Shown: positions 22,101 through 51,894 of the stretch, piece after piece
Position numbering within the stretch: position 1 is the stretch's first letter
Layout: every line of letters starts with the position of its first letter
Source of the DNA: Sipunculus nudus
Taxonomy: Eukaryota; Annelida; Sipuncula; Golfingiida; Sipunculidae
Assembly: GCA_026874595.1 (NCBI GenBank)
Contig: CM049316.1
Coordinates: forward strand, 23,149,839-23,213,838
DNA: 64,000 bases
Reading direction: 5' to 3'
Program-made: the position numbers and the translations under genes
The notes under the pieces: generated by a model
Seen by the model: the letters and a program-made list of their open reading frames with translations, nothing else
The model's database searches: none
Told to the model about the DNA's origin: nothing

Positions 22101-25100
22101 GATTATACATATTTACCAATAGATTTTCTCACCTGAATTACCTTCTCATCAAAGTTCATGCATATTTCATGAGGTCACAGGTCATGAGATACACAATGAG
22201 TGTATTATGCACATATGTGGTGCTCTTGTTTAATTGTTTTATGGAGACAACCTCTTGGCCTGGTTAGAATGCACCTTATTTGCTGCCAATATTCTCACAT
22301 TAGGCAGCCATTAGCAAGTTTGGTGTCTTTATGTTAGATACTTCAAGTCTTCAACTATATAGCTGGCCTGGTTTAGTACTTGATTATTACCAGTAAAATG
22401 TCAGCACAAAAACAGAAACAAAAGTAGAATTTTGACATGATGACAGTAGAGTTTTAAAGAACTGATCTTATATTGTGTTTTCTTGCAGGAACTTTATCTA
22501 AATCTGCACGGAAGAAGAAAAAGAGAAAACAGAAACTTCTTGGTACAGAGATGTCTTCAGATAACAGCATCATTTTTGAGTCCCCAGCACAAAGTCTAGG
22601 CCAGTCTCCTATACTTGGCAGCACACAGGGCAGACAAGTTGGGGCAAGGTAAGCAAAGTCATCTTAAAACAATTTAAAACTAGGGAGCCGTGGGTCTTGA
22701 CGCTCTGCTGCATTTGTCTATATGTTTATGAAGTTTTCCAAAATATTGGTCCTGTGATCAGTTTGAAGCCAACCTGTTTACCCAAACTGGAGTTATTATC
22801 CATAAAATAATTTGTGAATTGATAGGCCCTGTGACCTAAACCTTTGACCTAGTAACCCCAAAATCAAAAGGAAACTTCCCCTATTGGCAGATGCACCACA
22901 TGTCAATGACGGAAGGATTAAAATGAAAAGTTTGGCTTAAAATGCATCCACAATCTTACTAAAGTGTTGGGTCCTGTGACCTTGACCTTTGATCTCATGA
23001 CCCCAGAATCAACAGTTCTTACTTAGTTGTGGGCTATATATAAGTCAAGTTTGAACCAATATTTCAAACCAAACTGGTGTTATCATCTGGAAACTAATAT
23101 GTGGACAGATGGCCTCCATGACCTTGACCTTTGACCTTGTGACCCCAAAATATATAAGTCACTTCCACTATTGGCAGGTGAGCAACACCTGGAAGATTGA
23201 AGGTTTTGGAAAGAAAGTTTGGATAAAAAGACATCAACAGTCTTTTTAAAGAAGTGGGTCCTTGACCTTTGGCCTTATGACCCAAAAATCAAAAGGGTTC
23301 TTACATTAATGATGGGTCATATGTAAGTCAAAATTGAAACCAATATGTCAATCCAAACTGGATTTATCATCCAGAAGCAAATATGTGGACAGATGGGCCC
23401 CTGTGACCATAACCTTTGATTTAGTGACCCCCAAATCAATCAGGTTCTTCCCCTATTGGCAGCTCAGCTATATGTGCAAGATGGAGGGTTTGGGATGAAA
23501 AGTTTGGTTTAAAATGCATCCACAATCTTTCTCAATAACTGGGTACTGTGACCTTGACCTTTGACCTCATGACCCCAAAGTTGAACAGAATCTTTCCCTA
23601 TTGGCAGATAAGCAACATCTTGAAGATGGAAAGTTTGAGATGTAAAGTTGGGCTTCAAATGCATATGCATTCTTTTTAAAGAAATGAGTACTGTGACCTT
23701 GACCTTTGACCTCTCGACCCCAAAATCCACACAGTTCTTACTTTAGTGGTGAGCCATATATAAGTTCAGTTTGAAACCAATATGTCGACTAAATTGGAGT
23801 TATCATCTGGAAACTTATTCATGAACAGATGGCCCCTGTGACCTTGACCTTTGACCTTAGGACCCCAAATTCATTTATGCTCTCCTCATACTGGCAAGTC
23901 AGCTAAATGCACAAGATTGTGAGTTTGAGGTGAAAAGCTTGGCTTAAAATGCAGCCATAATCTTTTTAAATAAGTGTGTCCTGTGACCTTGACCTTTGAC
24001 CTCGTGACCCCAAAATCATTTATGTTCTTGCTTTAGTGGTGGGCCATATGTAAGTCAAGTTTGAAATCCATATGTCAATCCAACCTAGAGTTATCATCTG
24101 GAAACAAATTTTTGTGGATGGACGGATGGGCAGACAGACAGCTAGAAAAACAGACAGACAGGGTGATTACTATGGGGCATCCACTTGTGAACAGTAAACA
24201 CACAAGGTTTTTGAACACTAGATGTAATCACAGCTGAGAAACTGACATAATTGTTGTCATTTTATAGTAAAAAAAATACAAACATATTTGTTAAAATATA
24301 AAAAAAATACAGGTGGTGCCACCAATTTTTGGGGAACTGACAAAACTAGTGGTGGTCAATATTCAAGGCAAGATTCATGACATTCCATGCATTAATTATC
24401 AAGATATTGGAAGTTTTGTATAAATTTTTTTATTATTCTGGGGGTACTTTCAAGCCCCATAGCTCAAAGAATATAGGTTGCAGTGACCTAATTTCAGGTT
24501 TCCAAGGAGATTTTTTATTGACCTCTTTGGTTAATCACTTCTAAGTTTCTAGGGCCAGCAGTTACGATTTATGCCTTGCTGACGGATGGCCGGACGCTCA
24601 GACAAACGACGGACAAAGCACAATCCCTTTACCTCAGTTGACCTACAGTCAACTGAGCTAAAAATATATTTTTGGTGGTTCTACTGCAAATAGCTGCACT
24701 GACAAACTTTTTAAGTATTGAATGAAAAAAGCAAGAAAACCATGCATTTTTATCGGTTTCAAAAATGGTGAAACAGGATTTCAGAAATTATAATTTTCTT
24801 TTCCAACATGAATTATGCCATACACCAGTCAATTAGTACCCCAGTCCCCAAACAGAGGTCAGTAAAAACCAGTGCAAAAATGAAGCTCCTTGGTCTGGTA
24901 GGAGCTGTCTGTGAAGTTATGATGAAAGTGTTTGCCTGGATGGTTGCAGGATGCCTCTGCTAAATTATTTCTTTTGGGAACTTGAAAATAAATTTTCACT
25001 TAACTGTCAGTCAGTGTGTAGGTGGAACATAGCTCTGCCTTTCTACATCACAGGTATTTTTCTGTTAATGATTTAAAGAAAGAATTCACCTGTGGCATGG

Positions 25101-39696: not shown

Positions 39697-40750
39697 GTTG
39701 CTTTGGGCCCCTTATATCAATGGGGTTAAGGTCATTTATTTCTCAGGGTTTTTTGTATTTTTGTACTTTGACTCACGTGCTACATATTGTTAGAGAAGAT
39801 TTTTTTTCAAAATATTACTTAATATTGTATCAGAATATCCCATTAGATGTGTTAAAGTAATTTGTGTTTTATGATATAAGTGGCCCTACTGGAAAACCTC
39901 CACAACATGTGCCAAATAGAATGGTGAAGCTGAGCAGAATGCCCTGGTAGTAAAGGACTGTTACAGCATAGAGTGTGAACTGTTATATGTCAGTCAACTG
40001 GTTATAAATTATATTTTGGTAAGATATCAATGAATGTCAATCAAAATTACAATTGTATTTGCAGGCTTTGCATTTGAAAAAGTACTTTTTAAAATGTTTT
40101 GGATTGAATTAAAAATGAATATGGAATCAGATAGCCTGCTTTATTGCACTAGTCAGAAATATAAGCAGTTCCCAGTTGTGAACTTAAGTATATGTATTTA
40201 GAATCAAATCCCTTACCAAGTACTTAACTGATAGTTTAATGGAAATTTAAGTCGGCTTGATTCCTGCTATCATGTGGAGTGTGATAATATTGGTGATAAT
40301 AATTTCTTCTTTTTTTTGGGATATTTCAACCTTGATTTTAGGGTTTCTCCAATTTTTTATTAGTAAAATTGCATGCTGAAAACATGACACCCTTTGGATT
40401 CAATGAAAATGGTTAACATTATATGAGGGTGGTTTGCTTTTCTGTACTCCAATGAAGATAAAATATAAAGTTTACTTGATGTATGTATATTATATACAAA
40501 TACCAGTCAGGCTAACTTGACTAAGGGTATATCAGATTTGCATAATGTTCTATTACTTCATGATCTTTCAAGTGGAAATAAAAAAAAGTAAATCTTTTTG
40601 TATGAATTGTTTTATCTTGCAAAAAGACATCATGTTCAGGTTTAGAGTTCAGATAAAAGGTTTACAACATAAACAGTGTTAAGATAATTAATTGACTCTC
40701 CACTGTATATCCATTATTTTTTTATTATTTTTTCTTTATTTTAAAGAGTC
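39697..40750. promoter_or_regulatory. Shared 5' region of MRPL3 (minus) and URI1 (plus)
   Basis: The two start codons face away from each other across 1,054 bp. The first URI1 coding exon begins at an AG (TTTTAAAG|AGTC) 4 nt before its ATG, so a non-coding URI1 exon should lie in this interval; I could not place it. The layout allows a bidirectional promoter near 39700-39800. Confidence 0.5.
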
Positions 40751-43700
40751 ATGGATCCTACAGGTGCTCTCCAGATGGATGAACCTAAAGGGATGACCCG
40801 TCTCCAGGAAGAACAAAGACGGGCTGTACAAGAAACCCAGGGCAGGATAAATCAAATGTAAGTATAGATCGGAGCCCAATTTACCAATCTTCTGCTGTAC
40901 CTGCCAGTGTTATCCCTGAAAGGAGTATCATACTACATGGGGGAAAATGTAACTTATTGTAAGAGTACTTAATTTTATCATCAGTGAACAAAAACAGAAA
41001 CAGGTGCTGGATATGGTTCAAGATTATGTGAGAAATGGGAATTTCTGAAGACACTGAATTAGCTGATTGAGTGTTCTTCGCCTTTTTCATATTGTTTGCA
41101 TGAGCATTTGGTTCTGTTTTAGAAACACAAACAATTCTGAATAACCCTATTTTAACCTATAACTTATGTTCTTTAACAGCGTGTGAGTACTTCTGTTAGC
41201 CCTGCACATTACTTGAGGTTTATTCGAGTCCTTATCATGCAGTCATTGAAGAAATCTGTGTTGGATTTAAATTTTTTTTTACAAGTTTTTGTCTCTTTAA
41301 CTCAGATTTAAACAGTTGCACTTTGGAGTGCTGTTTCAAAAATAATGATTTCTTGTATCATGTTGATCTTGCAGCTGTTAACTGTTTGAACCTAAAACAT
41401 ATCATCCATACAAAAGTCACCCTGAAAATCTACATGGGTGTTTATATGTTTCTGATGAGAAAAAATATTATTAGTTGGATTTTTCTAAACTTTGCACTGC
41501 AAGGTTTTCACAAAGGAAACATTGAGTTTTTTTATATATATATATTGCCTTATTATGTTAAGCTGATTATCTTTTGGGTTTTGCTTTTTAAATAAAGTAT
41601 GCATTTAAACTTATAATGGCAAAAGTCTCCAGGAACTGAAAATGTATAATTGGAAATGGTAATATTTTCACTGGGCTGTGTATTTTGAAGCATAAGTGTA
41701 CCCAGCATTTCGATGATGAGTTTAATTATGTTTTAAAGGGAGTCATTTATGAGGGATTACACAGCTTTACAAGACAGACTGAAGACTCTACCAGATAAGG
41801 TGACTCATGATGTAATGGTAAGTACAGAAGGTGACCCATGATATAATGGTTAGTACATAAGGTGACCCATGATATAATGTTAAGTACATAAGGTGACTCA
41901 TGTGGTAATGGTAAGTACATAAGATGACTCATGATGTAATGGTAAGTACATAAGGTGACCCATGATGTAATGGTAAGTACATAAGGTGACCCATGATACA
42001 ATGGTTAGTACATAAGGTGACTCATAATGTAATTGTAAGTACATTAGGTGACTCATGATGTTATGGTTAGTACATAAGGTGACTCATGATGTTATTGCAA
42101 GTATATAAGGTGACTCATGATGTAATGGTAAGTACATAAGGTGATTCATGATGTAATGGTAAGTACATAAGATGACTCATGATGTTATTGCAAGTATATA
42201 AGGTGACTCATGATGTGACGTAAAGTACATAAGGTGACTCATGATGTAATGGTAAGTTCATTAGGTGACTCATGATGTAATTGTAAGTACATAAGGTGAC
42301 TCATGATGTAATGGTAAGTACATAAGGTGATTCATGATGTAATGATAAGTACATAAGGTGATTCATGATGTAATGGTAAGTACATAAGGTGATTCATGAT
42401 GTAATGGTAAGTACATAAGGTGATTAATGATGTAATGGTAAGTACATAAGGTGACTCATGATGTAATGGTAAGTACATAAGGTGATTCATGATGTAATGT
42501 TAAGTACATAAGGTGACTCATGATGTAATGGTAAGTACATAAGGTGATCCATGATGTAATGGTAAGTACATAAGGTGATTCATGATGTAATGGTAAGTAC
42601 ATAAGGTGACTCATGATGTAATGGTAAGAACATAAGGTGACTCATGATGTAATCGTAAGTACATAAGGTGATTCATGATGTAATGGTAAGTACATAAGGT
42701 GACCCATGATACAATGGTTAGTACATAAGGTGACTCATGATGTAATGGTAAGTACATAAGGTGATTCATGATGTAATGGTAAGTACATAAGGTGATTCAT
42801 GATGTAATGGTAAGTACATAAGGTGACTCATGATGTAATGTTTAGTACATACAGTGTTTCATGATGTAATGGTAAGTACATAAGGTGACTCATGATGTAA
42901 TAGTAAGTACATAAGGTGACTCATGATGTAATGGTAAGTACATAAGGTGATTCATGATGTAATGGTAAGTACATAAGGTGATTCATGATGTAATGGTAAG
43001 TACATACAGTGTTTCATGATGTAATGGTAAGTACATAGGGTGATTCATGATGTAATGGTAAGTACATAAGGTGACTCATGATGTAATGGTTAGTATATAA
43101 GATGACTCATAATGTGATATAAAGTACATAAGGTGACTCATAATGTAATAGTAAGTACATTAGGTGACTCATGATGTTATGGTAAGTACATACATCATAA
43201 TACACAGGTCTCACAAAATAAAATGTGGTTGGCTTTACAGTTGCATGGTTAAATTCCTGTGATTTTGCTAGGGTTCCTTTTTGGCAATTCCACAGTAGAG
43301 TAAACTTTACAGAATATTTTCATTATCATAAGAATTATTTAATTTTAACTAAGTGCAAAAATATCAACAATTTGCAAAGGACCCAGTGGAGCATCATATA
43401 AGTGCAAATTCTTGTTCAAAAAGGCAAATAATTTAAAAAGTCTCATATTGTTTGAATTATCAGTCTTTATCTTCAATTTACTGAATTTGTCAATATTTTG
43501 TGTTTTGTCTCACATGGCTAAAGAAATAGACAATATGCATCAGTTGCATAGAGAGATATGGTGTCAAATGAATGCTCACATGTGTAGATGGTAGGGCTTG
43601 GTATCAGTCAGCCTTTCAGGTACAATATACTTATTGCAATACAGATAAGCGTTGACCATACGTTCCATTTTTGTTTGTGTATCACTTCAGATTAAATGCT

Positions 43701-46700
43701 CTGTGGATAATAAAACAAAACAAAAACAAGACTGGATTTTAGGCTAGGGTTGTATAATTTGTATCTATATTTCTCAGCATTTAACATGTTTCATTGATTC
43801 GACAATACAGCATGCATTTTGTATTGGTAACCATATCCACGTGACATATAAATAAGTAGATATGTCGGTATATTGATAAAACCCTAGTAGATGGTGCATA
43901 TTCATGACCCTTTTGTTTTCATGATAATTTCTAATTTGCATTTATCACAGATTTGATCACCCTTGCAAACAAAAAGCTAACCACAATATAGCAGACAGTC
44001 CTCAAGGCAAGTTGTATGTTTCGTGTTATAATAAATGGTTAGAACTTAAGAAGACCACACAGGAATAAGGCACTTTTGTAAAATGCATTTGCTTACGCAC
44101 TTAATGCATTGTGTACCGTATTTTATTTCATGAACAAACCTGAAACGTAGGTAAACATAAAATAAACATGCACATTCTTCATCCATTATCATTTGAGGAT
44201 TTGGCTGTGGTCAGAAAGTGTTATTCAGATCTCTACTTTGCCAGCACATGTCCCCTTGCCATCAGACTATCTCCAGAGACAGATTCTCACCTGGACACTG
44301 TCCTTGCAGTACTTTTGTGTTGAATGCCCATGCCCTTAGATGTAGAAATTGAAATGAACTTAAGAGATGGTCAAGACTTATGTTTTCTTGCATGAGCATT
44401 TATAGTTAACAATTTATAGTCCTTTTCTGGCATAAATCAGCAAAATTCAATGAAAAATCTTACATGAGGATATGCAAGATTGAAGAAAATTTGTGCCAGA
44501 TATTTTATGCCAGGAAATTTATGCAAGCAATGGTTTCATGCAAGAATCTTGTGAGCTTTAACAAATCTAGCATGCCAGATTATTCCTGAAATTAGGCCTG
44601 ATGGATCTAAACCCCATCTAAGGATGACTGACAGTGAGTCTATTAGCATTGGGGGCTGCACTAAATTTAGTGAAGTATCTAGGTGTTAAGATTGATCGTA
44701 ATCTTTTAATGCATGATTATATTAGTAGTATATGTTGTGCAGCCTTACTCTAGCTTCAATCTGGTGTTTCCTCTCTATTAATGTGTGCTGTTGGCTCATT
44801 TCCGCCACAGTAATGTCTCGCCTGGATTACTGTAATTCAGTTTTTGGTGGGTTACCTGCAGAGCAAGTCTCGCGGCTACAGATGGTCCAGAATAATGCTG
44901 CGCATCTTATTCTTAAGAAGCTTAAGACTGACCACGTCACCTCGCTGCTCAAACAGCTCCATAGGCTTCCTGTCAAATACCGCATACAATACAAAATTCT
45001 GTTTTTGTTTACCACCGTTTTCATGACTCACTTCCATCATATTTGACTGAAAAAATAATAACCTATCGGCCTTTGCATACGCTGCGCTCAGCTGGCAGAA
45101 ATCTCTTTAAGTACCAAAGTGTAATATGAAAATCTGTGAACTTTCCTTTCCATTTCGTAGCCCAAAAAGTTTGGAATTCACTTCCCATAACACTTAGAAA
45201 ATTTCCAACTCTTGTATCATTTAAAACTTATTAAAAACGTATCTATTTTGGCAAGCTTTTGGTAATTAATATGCATAATTTTTTTTCTGGATCAGTAGAT
45301 TTCCATGAAATTGTATGTGGGTAGGTGTGTGTGTGAATTTTGCTGTGAGTCCAATCATCGGAGCTATATAAATACTATATATTATTATTATTCAAGAAAT
45401 GTTTCAGCAAGAATCTTGTTAGTCTAAGCAAGAAATTACAAATCTGGCATATTTCTTGCATATAAAATTATATGAGAGAAAATTTTGTATGGGCAGTGAA
45501 TATCCTTCTGTTTGTGTTAGTCTTTTTATATTGTTAGCACAATAAATTGAAAACAAATAGACAAACAAACTGTATGCTTTCCCACTTTTGTCTTCTCTGT
45601 AGGTTCCATTTGGATGTTTGGCCATGATGCCTGGTCAGCTAATACACACAAATGAAATAATGGTCCTTTTGGGTGACAACTGGTTTGTTGAAAGGTCAGC
45701 AAAACAAGCAGTGGAAATTGTAGACAGAAGAAAAAAAGGTATTATGCATATTTTTATTAAATTCTGTATGCATCTGCATTAAGTGTGAACTTAAGGTGGC
45801 CAATCTGGTAACCTTTGTTTATCAGATTGGATTTTGTTTTTCTTTTTTACATTTGAAGGATCCTATTCTGATATCTAATGTGTATTCCATAAAGATAATC
45901 TCTTGGAAAATATTGTAAAAAATAAGTAAAAGTTGCCTATCCCTTAGTGCAAAGGCCCTCAGCTATGTTTGTAACATGTGGGGGCCCTGACATAATGAAC
46001 TTTATCCAAACATGTTAAACAAGAACATCTGGTGGCTAATAGAGAGGAACTACAGGTTTGTAAATGACAAAAGATGGTGTTGCTAAACATGCTTTTACCA
46101 ACAACAACATCAACAAGTGCTTTATCAGCCACTGGGTATAAGATGTTTTTTTCCCATATTCTCAGCATAGGCATGTGTACCATGATTACTAACAGCTTGT
46201 AGATAAAAAAATCTCATGTGCCCATTACAGCAGCGTTATAATACTTTTCTTAGGAGGTTTGCCCTGAATAAGCCAGAAATAATATAAATTAAATAAGGCA
46301 AGTGAAAAGCTGGCCTTAAACATTAGTGCCAAACCGTAGATCACCAGTGTTGACCTAATGTTTTGTTGTTGTGTTTGTCAAGAAATTGTGAACACTTGCC
46401 CTGCTAGGTTATATCATACATATAGCTCTAATTATCTCTCTCTATGAATTTTCTGGTCTTCTTCAGCTATTGAAGAACAAATTAAAGAGTTTAAGAAACA
46501 ACAAGGACTATTAGAGCCAAGGCTTCAGTTTACATCCCAGCTGAAGGAGGCAGTAAGTGTGACCAAAGTTTAGTAACAGATTACTGTTATTCCAGGACAT
46601 ACTATGAAAATGAAACCTGTGGTTGTGAATATACCTCATTATATGTCTAATTGGACAAAATTATAAAGTATGAGTTAACAAGTAAATTTTGAAAGAAAAT

Positions 46701-49700: not shown

Positions 49701-51894
49701 TACCTTTAGCCACAGCAATATTAAAGAAATAGTAAGCTGTTTTATGTTTAATAATAATTTGTTTTCACAAAGCATGGTTGCATGGTTTTTAGTGGGCTAT
49801 ACTTGTTATGGTAGGGTTGTGGGTTCATGTCCTGATCTCTTCACCTTCCATGTTAAGCCTTCTGGCCAAGTTCTTTACCACAAGGTTTAGCCCTCTTCAC
49901 CAAGGGGTGAATGGGTACTGGTCTTGGGCTGCAGGCAGACATAGAATGAAAAACCTTCTAGCATCTATTATGACACCTTTGGCTTGTTTATTTGCTGGGA
50001 TGCTGAGAAAAGTCATGAGAACTGACCAGAAAAATTTGTTATTAAAGGACTAGCACTCACTCCCATGGTTTGCCAGGCAGAATCTTCCCAGTATGCTCCC
50101 CCATCACATCTTGTAATTAGCCACCCTCATTTTATCAGGTTGGTCACCCTGCTGTGTCACTGGTGTCCAGTGTCTATGTACAGCCAAGGCAGTTACAGGG
50201 ACAGGCACAAGTTTATAAAGGCAAACCATAGGATTGAGTGGTTGCGTTGTAACTTTAAATGACATGGATATCAGATTATCCCAACCTACCTGCCTGCCTT
50301 CCTGCTTACAAAGTGATGAGTGTTGCCACAGGTTCACCTAAAAGTATAATTAATGGCATCAAATTCTTTCACTGCATTATGGTCTGCTTACTAATTCAGG
50401 ATTGATGCAGTTCCTCAACTGGTGGAATAATTGTGTAATCCACATCTTTTGGTCTAAATATTCAAATTTGGTGGGAAAATTGCATATACTGCTCAAGGAA
50501 TCTCAACGTTGAGTAATTTTGTGAAAATTCAGGCCAGAAATATCTCTCAGATTAAACCATTCAAGTGATAACTTTATAGGCTTTAACTGACATTTTGATG
50601 TACACTAAAAAGGAGTTGTATGTCAGAAAATTGACCAAATTTGATGTGTTTTTTTTTTTTGTTTATCTTTCTCAAACAACACAAGTTTCATAATCAGTTT
50701 ATGTTTAATAAAGATGCTAGTATTCTTTCTTCACATCTTAATAAGAAAAACAAGAATGGGGGGGTGGGGGTTCAGTTTTGCTCCATGGCTTAGTATCATA
50801 ATTACTTCAACCATTGAAGGTATCAGGGGGTTATTTGATTGGCCAGGTTTGTTTGCTTTTGTATCTGAGATGTATCTCCAAAATATTTCAATGAATTTAC
50901 ATAAAATTTTGCAGGGAAAATAATGTAAGTATGGATTGGTACACTTAAATTAAAAAATGTGGATCTGTAACTTGATTCTACCAAATTTGCCCATTTTGTC
51001 TGCCATCTTGTTTGTTTTCTTTACATCTCTTACATTATATTAATCTGCCCCAAAATGTTATTACTTCTTCCTTAGCGTATTACTATATTTCCACAAAATT
51101 ATTTAAAATCATGTGAGAATTTTTCGAGATATTTGTGAACAAGGAAGTGCCTTTGACGTTATGTCTGCATTTTACTTCTCTTTGCAGGAATCTTCATCAG
51201 AACAAGGAGTAGCAGAGGGTTCTGATGGGTTGTCATTGAAAAGTCCTTCTGATATCTACAAACACTTCTGTCCCATGCACAAACCTAAGTCCATACTCAA
51301 ACCACCTAAATCACCAACTGAACCTGTCATAGGTCAAAGGTCAGAGACACTGGAGTCAAAATTAACCAGTATCACAGAATCTGTGGTGGGTCAAAGGTCA
51401 GAGGTCCTGGAGTCAAGGTTAACCAATGTTGGACCCAGGGAAACACTGTCAGACAGACCAGAGGTAAGAATAACACAGTTGAATTTCAAAATGAAATATT
51501 TAGTAACATATTACCAATTTACAACTGATGATGAAAGTGACCATATTATATTAACTTAATTTAAGGTTAAAGATCTTAAGAACAAAGGATGGAAAAAACA
51601 ATGTGTTTACTTTTAAACTGTTGCATAATATTTTTTCAAAAAATTTTTCCAATAATTCAAGTTTCTGTATATTTTCAGTAACAGTTTTATAACTGACATT
51701 TTTGTATATCCTAGGAATAATTACTTTTGTTATGATTAAAGCAAATATAATAAGCTGAATGTTTTCAACAGGCATTCTCTGGAGCAGTGAAAGAGAGAGT
51801 GGTTCAGCCTAGTGCACAGGGACTGCCACAAAATGAGCCACAAAAGAGAATATCCAAGTTTAAACAACAGAGAATGAGTCAGCAAAAAAGGTAG
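40751..51894 (+). CDS. URI1: URI1 (unconventional prefoldin RPB5 interactor), nine coding exons, 423 aa
   Basis: Exons are 40751-40857, 41739-41817, 45603-45738, 46467-46552, 47689-47752, 48137-48302, 49497-49731, 51188-51463 and 51772-51894, with all phases consistent. URI binds RPB5 and works in the R2TP/prefoldin-like complex that assembles RNA polymerases and PIKK kinases. The N-terminal two-thirds of the prefoldin domain matches human URI: LQDRLKTLPDK, VPFG-LAMMPGQLIHTNEI, LLGDNWFVERSAKQA. Then come a coiled helix, an EIREDYD block, LWERLRELE, an acidic D/E tract (about 233-270), the ITFSHS block (found as YFSH in human), an SILK motif at 326-329 (PP1-docking type, as in human KSILK), and the C-terminal AFSG and RISKFKQQR. 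It is shorter than human URI (535 aa), mainly in the linker regions. Exon 8 has an internal 19-residue duplication. Intron 2 begins in a 31-bp minisatellite built from the exon 2 end. Confidence 0.95.
40858..41738 (+). other. URI1 intron 1
   Basis: Intron between AT|GTAAGT and TTTTAAAG. No repeat or exon recognised. Confidence 0.6.
41795..43191 (+). repeat. 31-bp minisatellite, about 45 units, seeded by the URI1 exon 2 5' splice site
   Basis: The unit is ATAAGGTGACTCATGATGTA followed by ATGGTAAGTAC. The first unit is the last 20-odd coding bases of exon 2 plus the authentic donor ATG|GTAAGT. The remaining units are intronic, and most keep a full GTAAGT. By my count 45 units are present, 24 of them containing TGACTCA. 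Common variants are GTGATTCATG, GTGACCCATG and ACAGTGTTTCATG. There are no unique spacers, so it is a minisatellite. Confidence 0.95.
43192..44619 (+). other. URI1 intron 2, middle part
   Basis: Non-coding. No clear repeat boundary. Confidence 0.4.
44620..45392 (+). mobile_element. 3' fragment of a CR1/L2/Jockey-type LINE in URI1 intron 2
   Basis: Broken reading frames encode the C-terminal part of a non-LTR reverse transcriptase polyprotein: a KYLGV-type block at about 44668, then SRLDYCNSVFGGLP, LQ-VQNNAAHLIL and LLKQLHRLPVKYRIQYKIL at 44814-45010, then after a frame change remnants reading RPLHTLRSAGRNLF and VWNSLP to about 45190. It ends in a short ATT microsatellite at about 45378-45392, as is usual for CR1/L2-like 3' tails. 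Frameshifts and stops show it is dead. Confidence 0.85.
45739..46466 (+). other. URI1 intron 3
   Basis: No further feature recognised. Confidence 0.5.
46553..47688 (+). other. URI1 intron 4
   Basis: Non-coding. About 47240-47640 contains recurring GACC, AACC and TAGACC words suggestive of a degenerate dispersed repeat, but no terminus was identified. Confidence 0.35.
47753..48136 (+). other. URI1 intron 5
   Basis: Short AT-rich intron, G|GTATTA to AATAAACAG; nothing else seen. Confidence 0.6.
48303..49496 (+). other. URI1 intron 6
   Basis: About 48420-48550 is a diverged copy of the repeat in RMP24 intron 2 (20335-20480). A minus-strand open frame at 49158-49400 is not recognised. Confidence 0.45.
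49775..50045 (+). mobile_element. tRNA-derived SINE in URI1 intron 7
   Basis: The 5' part resembles a tRNA gene: a box-A-like TAGTGGGCTATAC at about 49789 and a box-B-like GGGTTCATGTCC at about 49821 (compare GGTTCGANNCC), about 35 bp apart. It is followed by a body with CTTCACCAAGGGGTGAATGG and GTACTGG, a body type I recall from invertebrate tRNA SINEs. Diverged and probably inactive. Confidence 0.65.
50046..51187 (+). other. URI1 intron 7, distal part
   Basis: Non-coding, with a T-run at about 50649 and a G-rich patch at about 50757-50770. The intron ends at CTCTTTGCAG. Confidence 0.5.

Follow-up and report, generated by a model that had tools for sequence, protein, structure and literature searches.

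The window analysed, a 64,000-nucleotide stretch of the Sipunculus nudus genome (contig CM049316.1), carries on its forward strand a gene resembling URI1. Three coding exons, at 40751-40857, 41739-41817 (79 nt) and 45603-45738, form a continuous reading frame when joined. Exon 1 is followed by a donor at 40858 (AAT/GTAAGT) and is joined to exon 2 in frame via a split ATG codon; the junction between exons 2 and 3 is in phase 0, with exon 3 preceded by the acceptor ctctgtag/GTTCCATTTGG. The joined product has a single match to the Pfam Prefoldin family (PF02996, E 2.8e-15), which runs across the exon 2/3 junction, the prefoldin domain carrying on into exon 3. The product also aligns without gaps across the same junction to the N-terminal region of human URI1, with 51 of 93 residues identical. 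These two results uphold the first-pass annotation in its claim of a URI1-like gene with a donor at the end of exon 2, and it is the protein alignments that supply the evidence for use of the first donor.

Matches of the product to solved prefoldins are weak (best E 1.2e-4), and its score against NCBIfam TIGR00293 (prefoldin alpha), at 35.6 bits, lies below the cut-off of 53.9. With the C-terminal pieces joined by hand, no Pfam family scores above its cut-off, so that the name URI1 depends on the comparison with the human sequence. A protein search of the 1.43-Gb genome at E values up to 0.1 returned three matches, which are the three exons of this gene; one copy was found, and the search revealed no URI1 retrocopy showing the exon 2/3 junction. 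Directly before the start codon lies a T-rich stretch ending in AAAG (40722-40750). This suggests an upstream non-coding exon, in which case coding exon 2 may be the third exon of the transcript. Further downstream, a C-terminal coding exon at 51188-51520 contains an internal duplication of about 20 amino acids, TE(P/S)V(I/V)GQRSE(T/V)LES(K/R)LT.

A minisatellite begins within exon 2 and extends into intron 2 on the same strand. Tandem Repeats Finder (TRF) reports a period of 31, with 45.1 copies and 90% matches at 41795-43192, and the array can be cut in register into 45 full units, the two approaches together confirming the earlier count of about 45 copies of a 31-bp unit made of the exon 2 end and its donor. 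Such a unit of tens of base pairs in many similar copies (31 bp x 45) is what characterizes a minisatellite or VNTR. The consensus, ATAAGGTGACTCATGATGTAATGGTAAGTAC, is exactly unit 1, which straddles the exon-intron boundary, the final 23 nt of coding exon 2 being followed by the 8 nt with which intron 2 opens (GTAAGTAC). Its exonic part encodes DKVTHDVM, aligned without gaps to DKLSYNIM in human URI1. The unit thus includes the exon's own donor, GTAAGT at 41818-41823, which is the authentic 5' splice site for intron 2, and the array has its start at the edge of the exon.

Within the array there are 31 occurrences of GTAAGT. The full donor word ATGGTAAGT (ATG/GTAAGT) is present in 26 of the 45 units, the authentic donor included, and these 26 sites equal the authentic donor in strength when scored with position weights. 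The GT at the donor position is intact in 37 of the 45 units, and two of the remaining eight have GC. By the same scoring, the array holds about 18.6 sites per kb that match or exceed the authentic donor in strength, as compared with 0.08 per kb on the forward strand and 0.19 per kb on the reverse strand elsewhere in the window, a density so far above that of the rest of the window that chance is excluded. Across units 2-45, 84 of 1,364 positions (6.2%) differ from unit 1. The two nearest decoys (41849-41885) are among those affected: unit 2 reads ATGGTTAGT, with the donor weakened to GTTAGT, whilst unit 3 reads ATGTTAAGT, in which the donor is lost (TTAAGT). The first decoy equal to the real donor is therefore that of unit 4, at 41911, and over units 4-45 (41911-43187) 25 of 42 carry a decoy identical to it. 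Dozens of near-identical donors had been proposed, with the spliceosome perhaps having to choose the first of many equal sites. Many equal sites do exist, 25 of the 44 decoys being identical 9-mers, but not all are equal, and the nearest equal competitor lies in unit 4 rather than unit 2.

An in-frame TGA at 41839-41841 is present in all 44 decoy-extended exons, so that splicing at any of the downstream donors would cut the product to 69 amino acids. The earlier statement that decoy use would truncate the protein inside its prefoldin domain is supported. The 69-residue product has no Pfam match at E 0.1. Splicing at the unit 4 decoy would give an exon of 172 nt, and the lengths for units 4, 5 and 6 range from 172 to 234 nt. 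Special RNA folding was not apparent in the 300 nt that open with exon 2 (41739-42038), where z is +1.16 and 179 of 200 shuffles are at least as stable.

Sites resembling acceptors, in contrast to donors, are scarce in the array. Counted at a threshold of at least 10 pyrimidines in 17 positions, they number 0 in the array against 30 in the rest of intron 2 when YAG is required, and 2 against 43 when AAG, the acceptor of exon 2 itself, is also allowed; at 11/17 none is found in the array. Since the array is so poor in these sites, alternative donor use is the main risk, and decoy exons within it are unlikely. This bears on the suggestion, by analogy, that the decoys might cause detention of intron 2, as described for the decoy exon of OGT intron 4 (PMC12017769). 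Both loci present intronic donor-like sites that potentially compete for the spliceosome, and in that study OGT detention needs the decoy 5' splice sites; the two sites found here with AAG allowed are, moreover, at exon 2's own pyrimidine level. However, a decoy exon requires splice-like sites of both kinds. The OGT type consists of a small number of weak donor-like and acceptor-like sites, with several 3' splice sites, whereas the URI1-like array is made of tens of strong donors with few or no acceptors, and intron detention would be very unlikely. Elsewhere in intron 2, open reading frames at 44555-45234 resemble the final part of the reverse transcriptase of a non-LTR retrotransposon (SRLDYCNSVFGGLP...); two of them have no Pfam match above cut-off.

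Donor-bearing minisatellites are already known. The units of human IFI6 (6-16, G1P3) are 12 bp long, so that added units keep the reading frame. Here, by contrast, the unit is 31 bp and a stop codon follows the first donor, so that any decoy use truncates. The present array also lies in another gene and has 45 units. The likeness lies in a minisatellite that offers multiple splice donor sites within a transcript, as reported for IFI6 by Turri, Cuin and Porter (1995, Nucleic Acids Res 23:1854), and, according to a paper that cites their work, two of the downstream repeat units act as donors, giving rise to three mRNA species (PMC4526556). The URI1-like array, with donor consensus in 25 of its 44 downstream units, is another case of this kind. 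Because downstream units of IFI6 are used, leakage to nearby units is likely by analogy, and downstream use is predicted, here with truncation as its outcome. Internal tandem repeats at exon-intron boundaries have also been reported in human genes within segmental duplications, where they alter splicing (PMC2812944). The position of the repeat is similar; however, those repeats form novel introns, and their genes lie in segmental duplications, whereas the URI1-like unit brings a donor and hardly any acceptor-like sequence, and its gene was found in one copy.

Divergence is 6.6% in the donor 9-mer and 6.0% at the other 22 positions of the unit. The 9-mer contains 10 distinct variant types against 8.4 expected (p 0.28), and the GT itself 4 against 1.9 (p 0.06), whilst positions -1 to +3, an interval chosen after seeing the data, have 8 distinct changes against 3.7 expected (p 0.004). 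Thus, neither divergence nor variant-type counts give any sign of selection to preserve decoy donors. A mild tendency toward decoy loss is possible but not established, the excess at -1 to +3 being post hoc and not borne out by the value for the whole 9-mer; the 25 decoys that are still perfect also speak against it. Loss of both nearest decoys could be chance, the probability calculated by hand from the 19 of 44 decoys that are non-consensus being about 0.18.

These observations weigh on the proposal that the array acts as a rheostat, in which a fixed fraction of transcripts would be spliced at decoys, carry the TGA at 41839 and be degraded, with array length setting URI1 output. One stop is common to all 44 decoys and 25 of them are as strong as the real site, which would suit such a device, and the use of two downstream units in IFI6, with its three mRNA species, provides a precedent (PMC4526556). 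Nevertheless, decoy donors are conserved no better than the rest of the unit, and the two that lie nearest are weak or dead. A regulatory device of this sort seems improbable.

In other systems, the binding of multiple U1 snRNPs can promote exon recognition and protect against premature polyadenylation. By analogy, the array may bind many U1 snRNPs, not as donors, and in this way aid recognition of exon 2 or shield intron 2 from premature polyadenylation. The pyrimidine tract of exon 2 is the weakest of seven acceptors checked (10/17 as against 12-14/17), U1 pairing is predicted at -10.5 kcal/mol for 25 of the 26 consensus sites and at -9.1 for the one in unit 15, and AATAAA, found five times in the rest of intron 2, does not occur in the array. 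On the other hand, the donor word is unconstrained, and exon 2 was presumably already spliced before the array existed; a role limited to U1 binding is distinctly unlikely. The array has also been considered as a landing strip for multiple U1 in which 25 perfect 5' splice sites, lying downstream of a short exon whose 3' splice site is weak, would either boost exon 2 recognition or set URI1 output through regulated decoy splicing and decay. This is rather unlikely; if it were true, array length would be a heritable dial.

The donor word might also be incidental to a cluster of AP-1-type sites (TGACTCA) acting as an intronic enhancer. TGACTCA is found in 24 of the 45 units, but it belongs to the coding exon, where it contributes to the V-T-H codons, and it has been lost from the other 21 copies; no position of the unit has changed more often than the centre of this word (C to T in 16 of 45). 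Variant counts per position for this word amount to 4 types in 25 cells. An enhancer of this description would be extremely unlikely.

As to how the array arose, the exon predates it, because unit 1 equals the consensus, its exonic part aligns to human URI1 and the junction lies inside one Prefoldin match. By this evidence the array derives from the exon by copying, in agreement with the proposal of the first-pass annotation that the array was founded on the exon 2 donor. An ATA opens unit 1 and another directly follows the last unit, which suggests replication slippage between short direct repeats. The same annotation had the array growing outwards from the exon edge, and this is not supported: how far a unit lies from the exon has no discernible bearing on its divergence from unit 1 (rho -0.085, p 0.58). 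Instead, units are less diverged the farther they lie from the nearer end (rho -0.38, one-sided permutation p 0.006), the copies being most similar in the middle of the array and least so toward its two ends. On this pattern outward growth is rejected: the array started at the edge of the exon but appears to have lengthened chiefly in its interior, where it would also have been homogenised, as in an ordinary minisatellite. Higher-order blocks, defined as at least two identical units carrying at least four variants and repeated, are absent from the array; single variant units do recur at distant places, as in units 7 and 30 and units 35 and 40.

The array is probably a passive minisatellite, seeded by the end of exon 2 and tolerated, with minor leaky splicing removed by decay. 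Its sequence shows that a 31-bp segment, made up of the end of coding exon 2 and the 8 intronic nucleotides next to it, was duplicated in tandem, perhaps through replication slippage given the two ATA trinucleotides, and the divergence pattern points to enlargement and homogenisation chiefly inside the array. The spliceosome would then take the first donor, with exon 2 defined as a short unit beside its 3' splice site, a choice that the weak or dead decoys of units 2 and 3 may also favour. Occasional use of unit 4, 5 or 6 would lead to the stop after 69 amino acids and to nonsense-mediated decay, at a small and tolerated cost. What speaks against a tolerated accident is that 25 of the 44 decoys are still perfect, whereas an array that was strictly harmful should have been purged or disabled.

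An exon edge can thus itself seed a minisatellite, and the locus provides a natural test of how the spliceosome chooses among dozens of identical 5' splice sites with a fixed 31-nt spacing and the same local sequence. As every wrong donor choice gives the same stop, truncation is uniform, and junction counts could tell first-come, exon-definition and proximity rules apart.

In searches of the genome DNA, which skip very common words and whose counts are lower bounds, the array was found at this locus only. Triplets of GTAAGT spaced 10-40 bases apart gave 8,988 matches (4,094 forward, 4,894 reverse) and triplets of the reversed word, used as a control, 17,927 (9,622 and 8,305), overlapping matches within one array being counted many times. 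The matches listed, a subset of the total, group into nine places within the first 2.3 Mb of contig 1. Six of these places are clear arrays, and the other three are single matches resembling copies of one dispersed sequence. Arrays of donor-like words are thus common in this genome but show no enrichment over the reversed-word control, whose triplets are more numerous; what sets the URI1 array apart is its start on an exon edge. On a rough estimate that assumes 200,000 donors, a random 31-bp seed would overlap a donor in about 0.4% of cases, and with many thousands of arrays some exon-edge cases are therefore expected. Another GTAAGT minisatellite, at about 883493-886015 of contig 1, has a 45-bp unit, often CAG followed by 11 bases and GTAAGT, which resembles a tiny exon with both splice signals. 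Within the window, a 145-bp tandem repeat at 23401-23727 contains CTGTGACCTTGACCTTTGACC, which reads like nuclear-receptor half sites.
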